From: Komagataella phaffii GS115
Taxonomy: Eukaryota > Ascomycota > Pichiomycetes > Pichiales > Pichiaceae
Length of the DNA: 64,000 nt
Reading direction: 5' to 3'
NCBI RefSeq assembly: GCF_000027005.1
Contig: NC_012965.1
Span: forward strand, 1,785,001 to 1,849,000
The first letter of the stretch is position 1, and every line of letters begins with the position of its first letter. Position numbers and translations under genes: made by a program. Shown piece by piece: positions 39,332 through 62,848 of the stretch. A model generated the notes under the pieces. That model searched no databases. It was not told the DNA's origin and was given only the letters and a program-made list of their open reading frames with translations.

Positions 39332-41722
39332 TCATAAATCGTCTTTACTTCCCACTTTCGCAAAAATGTAAAGATACCCATTGGACTCCATCTCCTTGAT
39401 GTTGGCTTCATCTGCCAACACCACCTTTTCGTCATTGAACAAAATCCACCTTGGTTGTCCATCGATCTTCTTCTTGATAAACACCACGTAATGGCCAGAA
39501 TGAACAGTGATTCCTTTATGGCATATAACAGCCAATAATTTGTACTCAGGTCTCTTTATGGATTCTTTCACAATAAGCTCGCTGATCTGCTGTTCTTGCG
39601 ACTTTGCTTTGGGTGGCCCATCTGGAATCTCTCCATCATCATCGGGATTCGAAAATAACCACTCAACCGCAGCTTCTATGTTGATATTATTAAGTATCAG
39701 GGCTTTCTTTGCCAATTTTGACGTAAAGCCCATAGAAACAAGATTATCTACCAATTCTTGGCTTGGTTCAATTGCGGGTTTGCTGCTGCTGCTATCTTTA
39801 GGCAACTCAAATGGAGAGTCAATATCAGGATCTTCCATATGACTAAAGAGCCAATTCATAGCATCTTCAGCAGACAAGTTGCCAGTATTAAATAAAGCCT
39901 TCAAACATCGATTATTTGGAAAGCCCATCGCTTCAAGTTGTTGGATAGCTTCTGGGTTGGGTTCAAATCCGGTTTCTTCGGAATCGGAAACATCTTCGGG
40001 CATTAACGATTCTCCTTCAAGTAAGCCTTGTGATCTCAGGTTTGAGAGATCGATCCTTTCCAAAGTTTTTTCTTCCGCTCTTTTGAACAAGATTGGAACG
40101 TCGGTCTTGATTGGTACCCAATTCTTCAACTTGATCCTCTCTGTTGACACCGTCAAAACATCAGGGAACGTTTGCAATGACTGACTTTTGACAAGTTTTT
40201 CCCCTTGACAAAATGAACATTTGTGTTCGATTTCTTCTTCCTGAGCCCAATTTTTGAAACAAGACTCAAAGGTTACAGGTTGATATCTTTCTCTACCATC
40301 ATCATCAATATCCAACACTGTGTCTTCCACGGGGAGGGCTAAACTGTTTGTGACCTCCTTTATAAACCTGACACTAGAACAAGTAGAACATTTCAATTTG
40401 TTCTCCAGCACAAAATGGAGCGGCGAGTTAGGAGGATTCTCTTCAGACACATACAATTCGTCAATCTTGTCCATGATATAAAGCCAAAATTCATAAGCAT
40501 CTTGTTGCTTCATGGTAGAAAATTCTGGATGATTCTGACCAATTAAATTCTTGAATCCAAAAGGCTTTATCCCACGTTGAAACTTTATTTCCTCAGTCGT
40601 TGAATAATCAGGGATGGAATATCTTCCCGAAAGAAGTCCATCCGCTATTTTTATAAGCTGTATGTTTAAATCAGTATTAGGAGTAGTCAATCGATCAATT
40701 GGGAAATCTCTATTGAGAAAAAATTCTTTGTACGACCGAAGGGAGAACAATGTTTGCAAAACACTTGCGAGATAACAGGAGTTTCCCAAGTTCTTGAACC
40801 CAGTCAATTCTCGACCGAAAACAGGAACCAATGACTTCCCATCTTTTTGATCCATGTTAAAGTCCCATTTGACATTCTGCTCAATTTGAAGTTCAGTGAG
40901 GTTCTTCTCAGTTTTTACCACTTCATGAATATTGATACCAAATCTTGATAGGTACTTGCCAAGTTCAGGCACTTTAACTTCATCATTACAATTATAACAA
41001 TAACAGTCTGCAGAATCTGAGGATAGAGAGCCTAGCTTTACAGCGATATTATGGTTTTCATGACTTTCAAAGTGAGACAACGCATGGGAATTTCCCGGAA
41101 TACCTCCAAACTGTTGCCTTCCGCATCCTAGACTACCACAAACAACACATATCCACAAGTTCTCCTTCAAGTCGCATGATTGACATTGGGTAAGGTCTAA
41201 ATCTTCTATAGGTTGCTGAACGATGTCAAAACAATGATGGCAGGGCAGAATTTCTTGTTCCCAAGACTTGATCTCTTCTTTCCTTTCATTGGAGCTTGAA
41301 TGCAAGACAGTTTCAACTATTGAATTAGTACTAGCTGGAAGATCTTCCTGCTTTAAGGGAAACTGATCATCACACGAAGAGCAAAAAAGGGCAGTTTGAA
41401 TGTTAAATAAATCTTCTTCCGATTGATCTTTGATTTCTAATTTGGCAATCTTTTCTGGACTTTCTTCGCCCTCTTTTCTTTCTCTTTTGGGTTTGAGAAC
41501 TTTCTTCAAATTTAAGTACAAAGTGTGATCAAATAGAGCGGAATGGAGTTGAGTATGGTTCAGATCGCCTCTGGAAAATGATTGAAAGCAATGCAAGCAA
41601 ATATCGAGACCTTTCGGTTCGAACGCTGTATCAAAACACAGCATGCAGTCATCTTTAAATACCGGAGTGCCCTTTGTCGGAGCTTTAATGTTGTCAGCAC
41701 TATTAAAGTGTGTGCAAGCCAT
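39332..41722 (-). CDS. UBP14: ubiquitin-specific protease Ubp14 (USP5/isopeptidase T type)
   Basis: 796 residues. Zinc fingers lie at about 20-50 and 180-250, the latter the ZnF-UBP (CQSCDLKENLWICVVCGSLGCGR, HALSHFESHENHNIAV) that binds the free ubiquitin C-terminus. The Cys box LTGFKNLGNSCYLASVLQTL places the catalytic Cys near 316. Two UBA domains, at about 617-660 (AIQQLEAMGFPNNRCLKAL) and 683-725 (LVDNLVSMGFTSKLAKKAL), interrupt the catalytic domain. The His box HKGITVHSGHYVVFIKK closes it. Architecture and length match Ubp14/USP5, which recycles unanchored polyubiquitin chains and so protects the proteasome. Confidence 0.95.
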   Translation of the reverse strand: MACTHFNSADNIKAPTKGTPVFKDDCMLCFDTAFEPKGLDICLHCFQSFSRGDLNHTQLHSALFDHTLYLNLKKVLKPKRERKEGEESPEKIAKLEIKDQSEEDLFNIQTALFCSSCDDQFPLKQEDLPASTNSIVETVLHSSSNERKEEIKSWEQEILPCHHCFDIVQQPIEDLDLTQCQSCDLKENLWICVVCGSLGCGRQQFGGIPGNSHALSHFESHENHNIAVKLGSLSSDSADCYCYNCNDEVKVPELGKYLSRFGINIHEVVKTEKNLTELQIEQNVKWDFNMDQKDGKSLVPVFGRELTGFKNLGNSCYLASVLQTLFSLRSYKEFFLNRDFPIDRLTTPNTDLNIQLIKIADGLLSGRYSIPDYSTTEEIKFQRGIKPFGFKNLIGQNHPEFSTMKQQDAYEFWLYIMDKIDELYVSEENPPNSPLHFVLENKLKCSTCSSVRFIKEVTNSLALPVEDTVLDIDDDGRERYQPVTFESCFKNWAQEEEIEHKCSFCQGEKLVKSQSLQTFPDVLTVSTERIKLKNWVPIKTDVPILFKRAEEKTLERIDLSNLRSQGLLEGESLMPEDVSDSEETGFEPNPEAIQQLEAMGFPNNRCLKALFNTGNLSAEDAMNWLFSHMEDPDIDSPFELPKDSSSSKPAIEPSQELVDNLVSMGFTSKLAKKALILNNINIEAAVEWLFSNPDDDGEIPDGPPKAKSQEQQISELIVKESIKRPEYKLLAVICHKGITVHSGHYVVFIKKKIDGQPRWILFNDEKVVLADEANIKEMESNGYLYIFAKVGSKDDL

Positions 41723-50614: not shown

Positions 50615-51553
50615 ATGATAACTCACAGATCCAATAACGTTCAGTATGAAGTAACACCGCCTTCTGTGGAAGAAGATTTAGGCCCACAGTTTGAGTTCTA
50701 CTGGACCCGTCAAAAAGATCCACACAGTATCCGAAGGAAGCTAATTTTAGCCAAGCATCCGGAAGTAGCCAAGTTATGTGGACCCGAGTGGAGGACGAAA
50801 TATATTGCTTCCGCTGTCGTTCTTCTACAGCTCTCCATTGCATATGCTCTAAAGAATACACCAGTACTGTCTTTCAAATTTTTGGCACTTGCATACGTCG
50901 TTGGTGCTACTGCAAACCAAAACTGTTTCCTCTGTATTCACGAGCTGAGCCATAACCTGGCATTCAGAAAACCACTTCACAACAAACTATTCGCAATTTG
51001 GGTCAATCTACCCATTGGAGTCCCATATAGCGCTTCATTCCAACCATATCACCAACTCCATCACAAATTTTTAGGCGATGAAGTGCTGGACACTGATCTT
51101 CCAACGCCTCTAGAAGCGACTGTTTTGTCCTCATTGCTGGGTAAAGCCTTCTTCGCCACTTTCCAAATATTCTTTTACGCGTTGAGGCCCATGATGGTTA
51201 CGTCTATTGACATGACTTTTATTCATTTGTTGAACGTGCTGGTTTGCTTGGTTAGCGATTTTATCCTGATCAAGTTCGGCTCAGCTAACAGTTTATGGTA
51301 CCTGATATTGAGTTCCTTCTTTGCGGGTTCGTTGCATCCTACGGCAGGGCACTTCATAGCTGAGCACTATTTATTGGATCCTCCAAAGCATTATACCCAA
51401 TTCCAGGATGTTCCCCCGTTAGAGACTTACTCCTACTACGGAATGCTGAATTTGTTCACTTGGAATGTAGGATATCACAACGAGCATCACGACTTTCCAT
51501 TCATTGCTTGGTCTAAGCTGCCTCTTCTGAGAACCATAGCACATGACTTTTAA
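50615..51553 (+). CDS. DES1: sphingolipid delta-4 desaturase, frameshifted near the C-terminus
   Basis: 312 residues to a TAA at 51551-51553. The N-terminal lipid-desaturase-type block (FEFYWTRQKDPHSIRRKLILAKHPEVAKL) and the three His boxes are present: HELSHN, HQLHH and NEHHDFP. Together these mark dihydroceramide/sphingolipid delta-4 desaturase (Des1/DEGS). The frame stops at RTIAHDF, but the +1 frame continues the family C-terminus directly: NQPLPKHTSWVRVIVDF, then DENVLMYNRVKR, ending at a TAG at 51696-51698. A one-base difference in the TTTT at 51548-51551 separates the two; joined they would make about 360 residues. The enzyme makes the delta-4 double bond of the ceramide used for glucosylceramide. 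All catalytic His boxes precede the break. Confidence 0.9.
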   Translation: MITHRSNNVQYEVTPPSVEEDLGPQFEFYWTRQKDPHSIRRKLILAKHPEVAKLCGPEWRTKYIASAVVLLQLSIAYALKNTPVLSFKFLALAYVVGATANQNCFLCIHELSHNLAFRKPLHNKLFAIWVNLPIGVPYSASFQPYHQLHHKFLGDEVLDTDLPTPLEATVLSSLLGKAFFATFQIFFYALRPMMVTSIDMTFIHLLNVLVCLVSDFILIKFGSANSLWYLILSSFFAGSLHPTAGHFIAEHYLLDPPKHYTQFQDVPPLETYSYYGMLNLFTWNVGYHNEHHDFPFIAWSKLPLLRTIAHDF

Positions 51554-51852
51554 TCAGCCATTACCAAAGCATACCTCTTGGGTGAGAGTTATAGTTGACT
51601 TTATCTTCGACGAGAACGTTCTGATGTACAATAGAGTCAAGAGAGAGACCGCAAAGGACAAATCTGTCGATTCAAAAACCACCAAAACCCAAAGTTAGTA
51701 GATTACATAGTCGCTTTACAATGTTAACACTTGATCAAGATGCGTTCCAAGTACCTATTCGCGCTCCCGGCTTTTTTGAGATATCGTAAAAACACCAGAT
51801 TTCCACCTCTTCATCTGCTACTTCGAAGGCTAACGGCACTAACGATACAATT

Positions 51853-52011
51853 ATGGTGTCGGACATTAAACATGTGTACTCAAGGTATTTTTTTCATTTA
51901 CCTTATTACATGCTCACCACAAACGAGGCATTCGTTCTTCACTCGTTTGTCATAGTATTCATCACTTTCATTTCGTACGGGCTATACAGCTTACTATCGT
52001 ACTACATTTGA
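51853..52011 (+). CDS. TSC3: Tsc3/ssSPT-like small subunit of serine palmitoyltransferase (52 residues)
   Basis: A complete short ORF from ATG to TGA, 154 bases beyond the shifted desaturase tail and on the same strand. It encodes a short polar start, then YSRYFFHLPYYMLTTNEAF, then one hydrophobic helix (VLHSFVIVFITFISYGLYSLL) ending SYYI. The block YF-HLPYYML....F-LHSF....F matches the core of S. cerevisiae Tsc3 (YYIHLPFYLM.....FFLHVFF), and more loosely mammalian ssSPT. These microproteins bind and stimulate serine palmitoyltransferase at the ER, the first step of sphingolipid synthesis. At 52 residues it is shorter than Tsc3 but keeps the core. An in-frame stop lies 22 codons upstream of the ATG. 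Identification is by eye, without a search. Confidence 0.68.
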   Translation: MVSDIKHVYSRYFFHLPYYMLTTNEAFVLHSFVIVFITFISYGLYSLLSYYI

Positions 52012-52338: not shown

Positions 52339-54255
52339 TCAGCCCTCCTTTAGTCCAGGTTCTCCAGTATCATCTAAAGCCAAGTCCTTGGTTTGTAAAT
52401 CTTCCGCAGAAAAGGAGTAGGGTTTCATGTTGGCAGTTGTAGGCTTCTGATTATCGGAATATTCTTCCATCCCATCCTCCAAATCAATAAGACTGCCATC
52501 GGCGACACGTGTAAACGAGCTAGTCCCTGTCTCTCCCGATGATAGAGGAATTACCTCTTGCTTAAGAGGACGAGTTGGAAAAGTTGCGGTGCCAGTTGGA
52601 GCATTAGAAGCTACCGCAACAGGAGGGGTGATCAATGATTGATGGACTTGTTGTGTCAATTTTTGAGCTACCATCTGTTGATATTGCAGTTGTTTGAACA
52701 GTTCATCCTGTTGGCTCAAACGTGAACGATGCACCGAAAGTATTTGAAGCTCCGCAGGAGTCAAATCCTTCTTGGCTTCAAGTCTCTTGTATTCATTGAA
52801 TTGTTCCATAGTCAGTTGGAGAGGCTTGATCTTGGTTTCATAATTTTGCAATGCCAGCTTCTCCATATATGCGTTCAATGCAAGAAACTCATTTGCTTCC
52901 GCAGGTGTGAGTGGTGCGTTGGAGCTGATTTTTTCTTGATAGACCATATACTTATTGGCTTTTTCATCCTGGACAGGAGCTGGCGTTGTCTCTGAGCTGC
53001 TGAGGTCGACACTGCCGTCAGCTTCACTTGTTTTTGTTGTCAGGTCCAAATGTGGGAACCGTTCCTCAACCTTATCCAGATCAACCTCTACACTGGAAAC
53101 GCTAAGGCCAGTGATATTCTTTTCTAAATTATCCGCCTTCAGTAAATGTTGCTGGTTCGTCAGGTTGACCACCGATTTAGAGACTTCTTCTTGAACATTG
53201 ATTCGGGCAACGTCATCCTGAAGGAATGCAAGCTGTGATTCATATATTTCCTTCAGTGGGTGACTGATAGGTGGTTGCAAGTTCTCCAAAAGCTTCTTAA
53301 AATCGTATTCTCCTTCTTGATAAAAATCAAACACTCTATCCAATTTGATATCACTATAAGTTCCCAGCAGTTGAATTACTAAGCTAGTCAATTGATAGCT
53401 ATTAGGTCGCAATGCGGGATCTTCCTGCAGCATAATCACGATGAGCCTCTTTAGTTTGGAAGAATAACGTGACTCATGTGGGAATTGGTAAGCAGAATGT
53501 AAAATCGCCAGTTCTCCAGTCTTTTCAAAAGGAGTGGTGTAGTAACACAACTTGTACAAGAATATCCCCAGTGCCCAAATGTCGCTCTTCTCGTTGATCG
53601 GCAAGCCTTTATATAAATCTACCATCTCTGGCGAACGATACTGAGGAGTTGTCTGACGCAGTATATCGTGAGATAAGTAATGGAATTCTTGGAAGGTCTT
53701 TGGGGCTCTTAGAACTGGGCAAGTGCTTCCAAAGTCACATAACTTGAAGTTATACTTGGAATCAATGAGCACGTTTTCAATCTTGATATCCCTGTGTATG
53801 AGCTTTAATTGATGCATGTAAAGAACTCCCAGACAGATGTCCAGCATAATTTTCAAGATTTTGGGTTCTGTAAGCTTGGTTTCTAAGTGACTGTTCATAT
53901 AATCTAGCAATGACTTATTCTCGCAGAGTTCCATCAGGACAAGTACCTCATAGCTTTGAGCAGAACCGGGCAAATGTGAAGCGTGCGAGTCATAGTAACG
54001 AACGACCTGACTACAGCCACTCAATCTTTTCATGACATCAACTTCTGATCGCAACTGATGAAGGCCATCCTTATCTGGAACGATAACTCTTTTCAGACAT
54101 GCAATATCAGAGTTGTGCTCTGAAGGGGATACTCGGACTTTATAGATGTGGGCAAAGCCTCCCTCCGAAATAAATTGGATCACTGTCACCTTATGTGAGC
54201 CAACTATCAGCTCAGTTCCAGGCTCTAGTTTTTCTAGCACTGCCAGTTTATCCAT
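52339..54255 (-). CDS. Ark/Prk (NAK-family) serine/threonine kinase
   Basis: 638 residues. The kinase domain covers about 18-295, opening with the NAK-type VTVIQFISEGGFAHIYKVR glycine loop. The catalytic loop is LIHRDIKIENVLID and the metal-binding motif KLCDFGS. The activation segment TTPQYRSPEMVDLY is followed by IWALGIFLYKLCYYTTPFE. This is the Ark1/Prk1/Akl1 and GAK/AAK1 class, which phosphorylates Pan1, Sla1 and other coat proteins to disassemble actin-linked endocytic sites. The C-terminal half is Gln/Glu-rich and probably coiled coil (about 450-545). I see no clear SH3-binding Pro-rich motif of the Abp1-recruiting Ark1/Prk1 type, so the precise orthologue is left open. Confidence 0.85.
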   Translation of the reverse strand: MDKLAVLEKLEPGTELIVGSHKVTVIQFISEGGFAHIYKVRVSPSEHNSDIACLKRVIVPDKDGLHQLRSEVDVMKRLSGCSQVVRYYDSHASHLPGSAQSYEVLVLMELCENKSLLDYMNSHLETKLTEPKILKIMLDICLGVLYMHQLKLIHRDIKIENVLIDSKYNFKLCDFGSTCPVLRAPKTFQEFHYLSHDILRQTTPQYRSPEMVDLYKGLPINEKSDIWALGIFLYKLCYYTTPFEKTGELAILHSAYQFPHESRYSSKLKRLIVIMLQEDPALRPNSYQLTSLVIQLLGTYSDIKLDRVFDFYQEGEYDFKKLLENLQPPISHPLKEIYESQLAFLQDDVARINVQEEVSKSVVNLTNQQHLLKADNLEKNITGLSVSSVEVDLDKVEERFPHLDLTTKTSEADGSVDLSSSETTPAPVQDEKANKYMVYQEKISSNAPLTPAEANEFLALNAYMEKLALQNYETKIKPLQLTMEQFNEYKRLEAKKDLTPAELQILSVHRSRLSQQDELFKQLQYQQMVAQKLTQQVHQSLITPPVAVASNAPTGTATFPTRPLKQEVIPLSSGETGTSSFTRVADGSLIDLEDGMEEYSDNQKPTTANMKPYSFSAEDLQTKDLALDDTGEPGLKEG

Positions 54256-54453: not shown

Positions 54454-56055
54454 CTATAGAACCTCAGCTAGTAACTTCTCTATTTCTTCCGCAGAGAATG
54501 GAATATATACAATTTCTTGTCCGGACTCTCCCTTAGTAATCACTAACATCTTATGCTCGCTGAACTCGGCTAGGGTTGTCCTAAAGTTCAAGGTATTACT
54601 GGTAAAGAATTCCTCGATGGCCATGGTGTAAAGCTCTTTAAAGGGAACCCCTTGACGAACAGAACCAATTACAGGGGCTGCTGAGTTGGTGGAAATCGAA
54701 TCTGACATTTTTTCCAATTGAGCTGCTGCAAGAATTCCGTAGATACCACGCGCATTCGGAGTTAAAGAAGCTAGCACATATTTGGCACCCTTTGAACCAA
54801 CAAATTTCTTGGATTTGCCTATCTGCAACACATCCTTGAAAGACACTTCTATGCTGTAAGGGTCAAAGGTCGTAGCATCATGGAATACAAAATTGAACAG
54901 ACTAGCCCTGTTGGCATCCCACATTAACGGTGAGTCAACCCGATCAGTGGAGCAAATCAGCCAGATGGAATCGACGCTGACTAGTTGAGCCAGAAGAAGC
55001 TGATATTGATCTTGCTGTATAGACTCTCCGTCTAAAGTGTGCAGTATAATCACCAGTTTGGGGATTGTGGTAACTCCACCAGAAGGACCAGCTCGTCGGT
55101 GGAGGTATCTAATCGCATCTTGCGGTTGTTGCGGTACTATTGCTCTTCGCCTTTGTTGCTTGGTAAGGACTTGTTCCATACACAAACGTAGTAAATCTTG
55201 AAATGTAGAATCTGGGTTGTACCCGTTAAAAACTATGAATTGAGGTTTCTTCGATGAGGGCACATGCTGAAATCTGCCCATTAGGAATTTGGCAAAGTTC
55301 ATTAAGACTTCATATTTGGAGCCAACTCCATATAGACAAATGTTAAATCCTTGCAGTAGCTCGAAGTACCATTGAGTATGGAGTGTTGATATGTATTTTT
55401 TCATTTGGGATCGAGTAGAATACTCTAAGCTTCCACTCAACTTGAGTGTGCTCTCCAAGAACTTGTCATGTTCCAAAGACACTGCCTGATTCATTGTGTG
55501 ACCACTTGTTTTCTGGCGACTTTTATGCTGATCAAAGTACCCTTCATATCCATCTAAGAATAAGGCCTTATCATCCATGGTCGACAACTGCTGTTGAGCA
55601 TTGAGTTGAAATTCTTGCTCAAGATTTTCATTCAGCCCTGCCAAATGATTCTCTACCTCATGTTCTTCTTCGTGTTCCACGTGCACTGGTAGAATACCGT
55701 CCTCCTTGCTCGCTTTGATGATCTTTTCCACAACTGTGTATTCATCCCCGTCAAGGCCATCGTCAAAATCTTCATTTCCATCTTCCAGCAATGTTCTCTT
55801 TGTACTCAAGGCCTTCAGCAAAGCAATCCTGTTCAACTCATCGACCCCCCTTTTGATAGGAGATCTCAAACCATTTCTTCCTGTTCTGTTCGACCTTGGA
55901 GACCCTAGTCTGATGATGCCTCTCGTAGATAGTTCTGTATGCAATTGGGGTGTTTTTTTCCTAGGAGATCTTCTTTTCCTTGGGGATGCTCCTTCCAGAT
56001 TTATTATTCCACTTTTCCTTTTGGAAGGTGATTCAAAAATGTCAATGCGTGTCAT
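54454..56055 (-). CDS. ORC2: origin recognition complex subunit Orc2
   Basis: 533 residues. The basic, disordered N-terminus (1-75) holds several CDK consensus sites: SPSK, SPRK twice, and SPIK. The conserved ORC2 core begins near 190 (MNQAVSLEHDKFLESTLKLSGS), runs through WYFELLQGFNICLYGVGSKYEVL and QFIVFNGYNPDSTFQDLL, and includes IPKLVIILHTLDGESI. A C-terminal winged helix ends in the EEIEKLLAEVL helix. Orc2 is an AAA+-like ORC subunit without a working ATPase site. CDK phosphorylation of Orc2 and Orc6 blocks re-replication in S. cerevisiae; both proteins here have clustered sites. It is divergent from RPC11, 165 bp away. Confidence 0.93.
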   Translation of the reverse strand: MTRIDIFESPSKRKSGIINLEGASPRKRRSPRKKTPQLHTELSTRGIIRLGSPRSNRTGRNGLRSPIKRGVDELNRIALLKALSTKRTLLEDGNEDFDDGLDGDEYTVVEKIIKASKEDGILPVHVEHEEEHEVENHLAGLNENLEQEFQLNAQQQLSTMDDKALFLDGYEGYFDQHKSRQKTSGHTMNQAVSLEHDKFLESTLKLSGSLEYSTRSQMKKYISTLHTQWYFELLQGFNICLYGVGSKYEVLMNFAKFLMGRFQHVPSSKKPQFIVFNGYNPDSTFQDLLRLCMEQVLTKQQRRRAIVPQQPQDAIRYLHRRAGPSGGVTTIPKLVIILHTLDGESIQQDQYQLLLAQLVSVDSIWLICSTDRVDSPLMWDANRASLFNFVFHDATTFDPYSIEVSFKDVLQIGKSKKFVGSKGAKYVLASLTPNARGIYGILAAAQLEKMSDSISTNSAAPVIGSVRQGVPFKELYTMAIEEFFTSNTLNFRTTLAEFSEHKMLVITKGESGQEIVYIPFSAEEIEKLLAEVL

Positions 56056-60381: not shown

Positions 60382-60909
60382 ATGTCATCTCAGGCTAACA
60401 ATGGCCGTCGAAGGCCCACTCTCAGACAAATGGTAGAGACGTACCTGGAAAATAGACCCACCAGTCAGTCTCGAAGCAGTTTTAATGATGATCCTTATTC
60501 CGTAGTATCCATGCTTCTCAACCAGCTCCAGAGTAGTTCCAGTCTAGATTCAAACAGATTAGATTCTATGGTTGATTTGCTGAACTCTCTGGGGGATCAA
60601 ATAGACACAGATACTGCCAAGGGAGTTGATGATGCCTATTTAGATCAATTGGATAGAGTTAACGTCAAGCATTTATCTCCTGACGATACATGTCCCATTT
60701 GCACTAATGAATTTCACAACGATCCATACCCTTTGGTTGTGAGGTTGCCATGCAACAAGAATCACTATTTTGACTTAGACTGCATAGGACCATGGTTGCA
60801 TTTGAACAAGACCTGCCCGTTGTGTCGTGTTGACGTGACGAAAAGGAAGGAGATAGTACTACCCTCTGATAGTGAGGAGGAAGATGATTTTGACGACATG
60901 TATGGCTGA
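60382..60909 (+). CDS. RING-H2 protein, YBR062C-like
   Basis: 175 residues. An N-terminal helical, Ser/Asp-rich region (1-95) precedes a RING-type finger at about 101-147. It reads CPICTNEFHNDPYPLVVRLPC, NKNHYFDLDCIGPWLHLNKTCPLCR, with the order and spacing expected for Zn ligands and an E2-binding Ile and Trp. The tail is acidic (DSEEEDDFDDMYG). The finger and size resemble S. cerevisiae YBR062C, a substrate-recognition subunit linked to San1/GID-type quality control in some reports, so the role is uncertain. E3 ligase activity is inference. Confidence 0.78.
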   Translation: MSSQANNGRRRPTLRQMVETYLENRPTSQSRSSFNDDPYSVVSMLLNQLQSSSSLDSNRLDSMVDLLNSLGDQIDTDTAKGVDDAYLDQLDRVNVKHLSPDDTCPICTNEFHNDPYPLVVRLPCNKNHYFDLDCIGPWLHLNKTCPLCRVDVTKRKEIVLPSDSEEEDDFDDMYG

Positions 60910-61912: not shown

Positions 61913-62848
61913 ATGGGAAAAACCAGTAAAGATAAGAGAGATCTTTATTATAGAAGAGCCAAGGAGGAAGGCTGGAGAGCAAGGTCTGCTTTCAAGCTCT
62001 TGCAGCTTAATGAGCAGTTCAACCTTTTCAAAGATGTTCGCAGAGTGGTCGATCTGTGTGCAGCACCCGGATCTTGGTCTCAGGTCCTTAGCAGGGAGCT
62101 CTATGAAAAGCAGTCAAACAACAGTGAAACTCCCGCCAAAATTGTCGCCGTAGATCTACAACCAATGTCTCCAATCGACGGAGTGACCACTTTACAGGCT
62201 GATATCACTCACCCTAAGACGTTAGAGAAAATACTGGAAATCTTTGGAGGTGAGCCTGCAGACTTTGTCTGTTCAGACGGAGCTCCCGATGTTACTGGTC
62301 TACATGATTTGGATGAATATATACAAAGTCAACTTATTTTGAGTGCTTTACAATTAACTACCTGCATTTTGAAGCCTGGAGGATCGTTTGTGGCCAAAAT
62401 TTTTAGAGGAAAGGATATTGACTTGCTGTACTCCCAAATGGGTTTCTTATTTGAACATGTAACATGCGCTAAGCCAAGATCTTCCCGTGGTACATCGTTG
62501 GAAAGCTTCATAGTGTGTCAAGGTTACCGACCCAGAGATGGTTGGAAGGGCACCTTGGATGGAAAAAATTTACTTACACCAGAACTGTTCTTTGAGGATG
62601 TCAATCTTGGTAAGAGGATTAAGTTTGACTCCGATTTACCAAACACCAAAGATTTTGAAGAGGAAAGGCACGTCGCTCCTTTTATTGCATGCGGAGATCT
62701 TTCAAGCTATGATTCAGACGCAACCTACACCCTAGAGGAAGATTTCAGAACTGTAAGTCTGGATCCAGTGCAATCACCGACGGCTCCACCCTACAAAAAA
62801 GCGTTAGAACTCAAGAGGCTGGGTCAACTTAAAATACATGTAAAGTAG
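61913..62848 (+). CDS. TRM7: tRNA 2'-O-ribose methyltransferase Trm7 (FTSJ1 family)
   Basis: 311 residues. The start [20 protein letters not shown] holds the catalytic Lys region, followed by [19 protein letters not shown]. The SAM-binding motif is [19 protein letters not shown] at about 45-63. The catalytic Asp is in [20 protein letters not shown], and the second Lys in [14 protein letters not shown]. This K-D-K-E set is that of RrmJ/FtsJ enzymes. Trm7 methylates positions 32 and 34 of the anticodon loop of tRNA-Phe, -Trp and -Leu with Trm732 and Trm734. The C-terminal ~60 residues are variable and acidic, as usual. Confidence 0.95.

Follow-up and report, generated by a model that had tools for sequence, protein, structure and literature searches.

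A probable serine palmitoyltransferase small subunit of 52 residues in Komagataella phaffii: a Tsc3-like open reading frame in trimmed form

The synthesis of sphingolipids begins with its rate-limiting step, which is catalyzed by serine palmitoyltransferase (SPT). In Komagataella phaffii, a major protein-production yeast, an open reading frame (ORF) of only 52 residues lies between genes for a sphingolipid delta-4 desaturase and a protein kinase, and a preliminary description proposed that it encodes a microprotein of the Tsc3/ssSPT type. Does this locus really contain the small subunit of SPT? We addressed the question within a window of 64,000 nucleotides on chromosome 3 (C3; 2,245,428 bp) and in the whole genome (9,216,378 bp, four contigs). 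We consider it probable, with good confidence, that the ORF is the K. phaffii orthologue of Tsc3, a small subunit of SPT.

The ORF occupies positions 51853..52011 of the forward strand (start context ACAATTATGGT) and its product is MVSDIKHVYSRYFFHLPYYMLTTNEAFVLHSFVIVFITFISYGLYSLLSYYI. The frame is intact from the ATG at 51853 to the TGA closing at 52011 and translates into 52 residues around a YFFHLPYYM core, so that the complete ATG-to-TGA ORF with the YFFHLPYYML sequence, as first described, is confirmed from the DNA. The length of the ORF is no evidence by itself, since 117 ATG-initiated ORFs in the window are this long or longer. Of the 114 ORFs of 45-100 aa in the window, three have a 19-residue stretch whose hydrophobicity is no lower than that of the 52-mer, which is itself one of the three. 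Synonymous codon use falls below that of 99.4% of same-length in-frame windows from long genes, by a measure that is weak at telling frames apart (mean 0.056 in frame versus -0.001 out of frame, SD 0.065).

The 52-mer scored 36.4 bits with a profile drawn from 58 relatives, the ORF itself having been left out of it. None of 10,000 composition-preserving shuffles reached this value (top shuffle 12.9 bits); the runner-up among 1068 stop-to-stop segments of at least 30 aa in the window scored 6.7 bits, and the same-genome null, drawn from 200 kb and comprising 3346 segments of this kind, peaked at 10.2 bits. The 58 relatives, called 'yeast' by sequence, are 60 search hits minus the ORF itself (P0001) and P0063, which duplicates S. 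cerevisiae Tsc3 but for a frame-shifted C-terminus. It is important to note that the query alignments behind the relatives contained the window ORF, and the one yielding the 58 also held the N-terminal element discussed below, so this set may favour relatives that carry the element. In a PDB sequence search with E values up to 10, the sole match of the 52-mer was Tsc3 (8c80_D, E 0.0039). Together, the profile score and the PDB match support the proposed Tsc3/ssSPT-like nature of the microprotein; judged by its sequence, the 52-mer is homologous to yeast Tsc3, and the likeness goes beyond composition.

Pfam family PF11779 matches residues 6-48 of the 52-mer (23.1 bits, E 5.9e-5), short of its curated cut-off of 29.8 bits. 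For yeast proteins this threshold appears to discriminate poorly: the precomputed PF11779 label is present on just 6 of the 58 relatives and absent from the other 52, S. cerevisiae Tsc3 (P0002) among these. With a 63-member profile made mainly of animal ssSPT proteins, the 52-mer obtained 2.5 bits, under its top shuffle (9.1). The two small K. phaffii ORFs (this one and another on chromosome 2, see below), S. cerevisiae Tsc3 (3.0 bits) and Cyberlindnera jadinii TSC3 all stay at or below 3.0 bits with that profile, and all four yeast scores are exceeded by the top score among 2,000 shuffles, whichever of the two small ORFs is shuffled. Since known yeast Tsc3 also fails to rise above shuffles, the mainly animal profile decides nothing; similarity to the family is thus found on the yeast Tsc3 side and not on the mainly animal one. 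A protein-collection search with the 52-mer returned itself alone, which says little about absence because that search requires shared 5-residue words. A fold search gave one weak match, which we do not count as evidence.

The reverse searches, from known proteins to the whole K. phaffii genome, disregard introns and score first-look candidates alone. S. cerevisiae Tsc3 (E 1.3e-5), Wickerhamomyces ciferrii TSC3 (E 9.9e-8) and PF11779 (E 0.0019) each pointed to a single locus, the 52-aa ORF; with PF11779, a match below the cut-off was also found in 1 of 14 control genomes. C. jadinii TSC3 placed the 52-aa ORF first of two matches (E 3.3e-8), the second being C2:632559-632720 (E 0.0101). A better Tsc3 orthologue elsewhere in the genome, which would have spoken against the proposal, did not emerge from these searches, the chromosome 2 ORF being the weaker match.

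The surroundings of the ORF may provide a line of argument that is independent of its sequence. Convergent with it lies a gene for an AAK1/ARK-family protein kinase (52339..54255, reverse strand; closest PDB chains AAK1), followed by ORC2 (54454..56055, reverse strand). We name the kinase AKL1 by position, since another ARK-family kinase resides on chromosome C2. A ubiquitin protease gene (39332..41722, reverse strand) with UCH, zf-UBP and two UBA stretches, presumably UBP14-like from this domain make-up, is separated from the desaturase by four genes. On the other side there are a RING-finger gene (60382..60909, forward strand), which we take to be YBR062C-like, and TRM7 (61913..62848, forward strand; best PDB match 6jp6, a tRNA 2'-O-methyltransferase). 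The order on S. cerevisiae chromosome II is UBP14 (YBR058C), TSC3 (YBR058C-A), AKL1 (YBR059C), ORC2 (YBR060C), TRM7 (YBR061C) and YBR062C; a protein-collection record names YBR058C-A as TSC3, and a literature search for the TSC3-AKL1-ORC2 order found no statement of it. The 52-aa ORF adjoins the kinase and then ORC2, with the UBP14-like gene and TRM7 near, so its neighbours appear to be those of S. cerevisiae TSC3, although TSC3 is presumably oriented to the kinase in the opposite way there. The whole 38199-62848 block resembles S. cerevisiae YBR057C-YBR070W in a rearranged state with other genes inserted; alongside the UBP14-, AKL1-, ORC2-, YBR062C- and TRM7-like genes, it holds genes that we take to be MUM2-, NRG- and ALG14-like.

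On the upstream side, the neighbour is the sphingolipid delta-4 desaturase gene (50615..51553, forward strand; Pfam FA_desaturase and Lipid_DES), of which the genome holds no other copy at E 1e-5. Its frame is closed by the TAA at 51551-51553. This frame halts at TTT TAA (51548-51553), while the +1 frame runs on from 51543 to 51698 on the same strand; the latter stretch has no Pfam match alone and looks like the C-terminal tail typical of delta-4 desaturases. The break may stem from an error in the sequence, from a genuine frameshift or from +1 slippage at TTT-TAA. The gap of 154 bp that had been reported after the desaturase is correct when the distance is taken from the end of the +1-frame tail (stop at 51698); from the desaturase's own stop at 51553 the distance is 299 bp. 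The two genes are indeed adjacent, and their suggested functional pairing is weakened: the ancient linkage of the small ORF seems to be with the kinase and ORC2, and the desaturase may adjoin it by mere coincidence.

Two ATGs stand upstream of the small ORF inside the 154-bp gap. One opens a uORF of 22 codons that ends before the small gene (51721..51789, forward strand), and the other a 71-codon ORF that overlaps the gene in another frame (51740..51955, forward strand; no Pfam match), a possible means of translational control. Because of these two ATGs, the 52-aa ORF would be poorly translated from an mRNA whose 5' end lies above 51740. We infer that either the 5' UTR of the gene is short or the uORFs regulate its translation.

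The AlphaFold2 model of the 52-mer consists of two helices, residues 2-20 and 23-51 (mean pLDDT 88.6, pTM 0.52). The N-terminal one (codons 1-20, 51853..51912, forward strand) includes the YFFHLPYYM core and, by analogy with Tsc3, would lie on the membrane surface. The other (codons 23-51, 51919..52005, forward strand) is the single predicted membrane-spanning helix; the 19-residue hydropathy maximum of 2.08 starts at residue 26. The predicted model therefore has the layout expected of ssSPT/Tsc3 proteins, a surface helix plus one transmembrane helix.

In comparison with S. cerevisiae Tsc3 (YBR058C-A; PDB 8c80 chain D), the 52-mer shares the two-helix core, the HLP(F/Y)Y motif, an acidic residue, Phe and LH opening the membrane helix, and a Gly inside that helix. 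Tsc3, however, has 80 residues; the 52-mer is without the N-terminal element, has Ser in place of Trp, and reads Y-M-L after HLP(F/Y) where Tsc3 reads Y-L-M. Identity is 40% to C. jadinii TSC3 (P0157), the highest among the 26 other rows of alignment A5, and 37% to W. ciferrii TSC3 (P0159). Both of these proteins start with MAGTFxYxxTNEER and are extended by ~30 residues at the C-terminus; the 52-mer has neither feature. With human ssSPTa (SPTSSA; PDB 7k0i chain C), the 52-mer has in common a short N-terminus and Y-M-L at the turn, the Met of this turn probably being the one that reaches the substrate in ssSPTa, although the sequence likeness is remote, as the mainly animal profile indicates. 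According to published work (PMC10550967), one Met of ssSPTa protrudes into the tunnel for the substrate and modulates which fatty acid is used.

Two hallmarks of yeast-type Tsc3 are lacking here, the elongated N-terminus with Y-x-P-T and the Trp in (Y/F)W-x-YY. The elongated N-terminus binds Lcb2 in yeast-type proteins. The Trp is present in 58 of 58 relatives, whereas the 52-mer reads VYSRYF, with Ser for Trp. A loose pattern for the Y-x-P-T element (aromatic residue or His, any residue, one of several, T) finds it in 52 of the 58, and by eye the remaining six carry it or a close form (YVDT, YYPT four times, EVPT); the 52-mer begins downstream of where it would sit. A six-frame profile search of the locus for the element in another frame gave nothing over noise. 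The shortest of the 58 relatives measures 74 aa versus 52 aa here, and Y-M-L at the turn, found in the 52-mer, is seen in none of the 58.

Might the gene simply be longer than the ATG at 51853 suggests? Upstream of 51853 the frame stays open for 21 codons without an ATG (51790..51852, forward strand), bounded by the TAA at 51787-51789, and this stretch belongs to the gene only if a further, hypothetical exon lies upstream. If such an exon were spliced in at or after 51790, the ATG at 51853 would be internal and the product a longer Tsc3, a scenario compatible with the Tsc3 role. The resulting 73-residue frame (21 codons plus the 52-mer) matches PDB Tsc3 with E 5.3e-6 rather than 0.0039; the added codons encode a polar, Ser/Thr-rich stretch with gene-like codon use (0.125 versus the in-frame mean of 0.056, in a short sample); and splicing raises the score with a profile of nine sequences from 22.9 bits to 33.3 bits in the best models. 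According to published work (PMC3547764), K. phaffii has 633 genes (11.9%) with at least two exons, and canonical introns average 99 bp. Yet the apparent gain of the 73-residue frame is mostly HMMER composition correction, since score plus bias rises little: from 27.5 to 30.9 bits in the PDB search, from 33.9 to 36.8 with the nine-sequence profile and from 47.9 to 48.8 with the 58-member profile. Among 22 one-intron GT-AG models (introns of 40-400 bp), tested along with the unspliced one, a GTAAGT or GTATGT donor occurred in none. A 99-bp intron with donor GTAAAA at 51786 and acceptor end at 51884, joining the 51721 ATG in frame, was rejected, as the score falls to 15.9 bits. We regard the longer protein as unlikely and keep the 52-aa reading because the gain is mostly a composition correction, none of the 22 models has a canonical donor, and the N-terminal profile is blank nearby.

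The second match of the genome searches deserves attention in its own right. It is a 91-aa ORF on the forward strand of chromosome 2 (G000:C2:632469-632744; L016:1970-2245), which lies near MTP18- and Dsc3-like genes. It corresponds to the 52-mer in the same core region but is longer at both ends, with a C-terminal extension, and sits on another chromosome. Used as a genome query, the 52-mer found it as its sole other match (E 0.012, 27% identity). With the 58-member profile it scored 30.0 bits, a value reached by none of 10,000 shuffles (top 15.4), and its whole open frame 26.2 bits; its best PDB match was Tsc3 (E 0.094), and its codon use is typical of genes. The genome searches with PF11779, S. 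cerevisiae Tsc3 and W. ciferrii Tsc3 missed it, it has no Pfam match, and as a search query it returned itself alone. From its sequence, we would call it a candidate second SPT small subunit.

Keeping this ORF in mind, one might suppose that the 52-aa ORF is what remains of a TSC3 gene in decay, its task having passed to the chromosome 2 ORF. The loss of the N-terminal element and the Trp would fit such decay, as would the two upstream ATGs and a codon use that is not gene-like here and typical in the chromosome 2 ORF. Against this stand an unbroken frame, a core that outscores the other ORF (36.4 versus 30.0 bits), the higher rank of the 52-mer for all three yeast Tsc3 queries, and the presence of the identical protein on a contig of different size; we find the relic scenario quite improbable. 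Even more so, we can hardly credit that the frame arose by chance and that its hydrophobic, Tyr/Phe-rich translation merely mimics Tsc3. The 117 ATG ORFs of equal or greater length in the window and a codon use like that of out-of-frame sequence would be in keeping with a chance origin, but it is residue order and not composition that drives the match, as the 10,000 shuffles indicate, and the ORF appears to sit at the position expected for TSC3, given the S. cerevisiae order. Overall, the 52-aa ORF is most likely a real gene of the known Tsc3 family, in trimmed form.

The suspicion that such a short gene may be unannotated has lost weight: a public protein collection contains the exact 52-aa protein, as one sequence on two contigs, in a record that either a curator or an automatic caller may have made. 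The longest contig has 2,263,464 bp, more than C3 of this genome, which suggests that the record stems from a different assembly. In a published annotation of K. phaffii (PMC4974788), ORFs were called with Prodigal, and such a procedure could have given rise to the record. In the portions of the literature covered by our search, no description of an SPT small subunit of K. phaffii or Pichia pastoris was found. A search for Komagataella together with serine palmitoyltransferase had one match, on fumonisins by its title, and a wider search had no Tsc3 in the best 25 of 282 matches.

The partners that a Tsc3 needs to be considered with are at hand in the genome: LCB2 at C3:1,398k, which among PDB chains comes nearest to the Lcb2 present in the Tsc3 structures, an LCB1-like ORF of 550 aa at C1:2,735k, named by eye, and a single ORM gene at C4:838k. 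In the glutamine-run ORF adjoining LCB2 (L006:2788-3933), part of the sequence is given as X. By analogy with S. cerevisiae and mammals, from which localisation, Lcb2 binding and SPT activation are all inferred, the 52-aa protein would be a short ER membrane protein with a surface helix (2-20) followed by a membrane helix (23-51), as modelled. It would attach to Lcb2 close to the membrane and render the Lcb1-Lcb2 enzyme, the source of 3-ketosphinganine, more active. A yeast TSC3 orthologue would be expected to stimulate SPT, and its deletion to cause temperature sensitivity with low LCB levels. Lacking the N-terminal element in the DNA as read, the protein resembles the human subunit in layout, and the two helices alone would have to hold Lcb2.

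It is tempting to speculate that K. phaffii has two diverged SPT small subunits, a minimal, clamp-less form whose gene adjoins that of the desaturase and a longer form from chromosome 2, which might steer SPT towards the glucosylceramide versus the inositol-phosphoceramide branch in the manner of mammalian ssSPTa and ssSPTb; this idea, drawn from analogy, is a long shot. If the chromosome 2 ORF were also a subunit, a two-subunit yeast would offer a simple model for the division of labour between mammalian ssSPTa and ssSPTb. A naturally trimmed Tsc3, for its part, would test whether activation needs the N-terminal grip on Lcb2.
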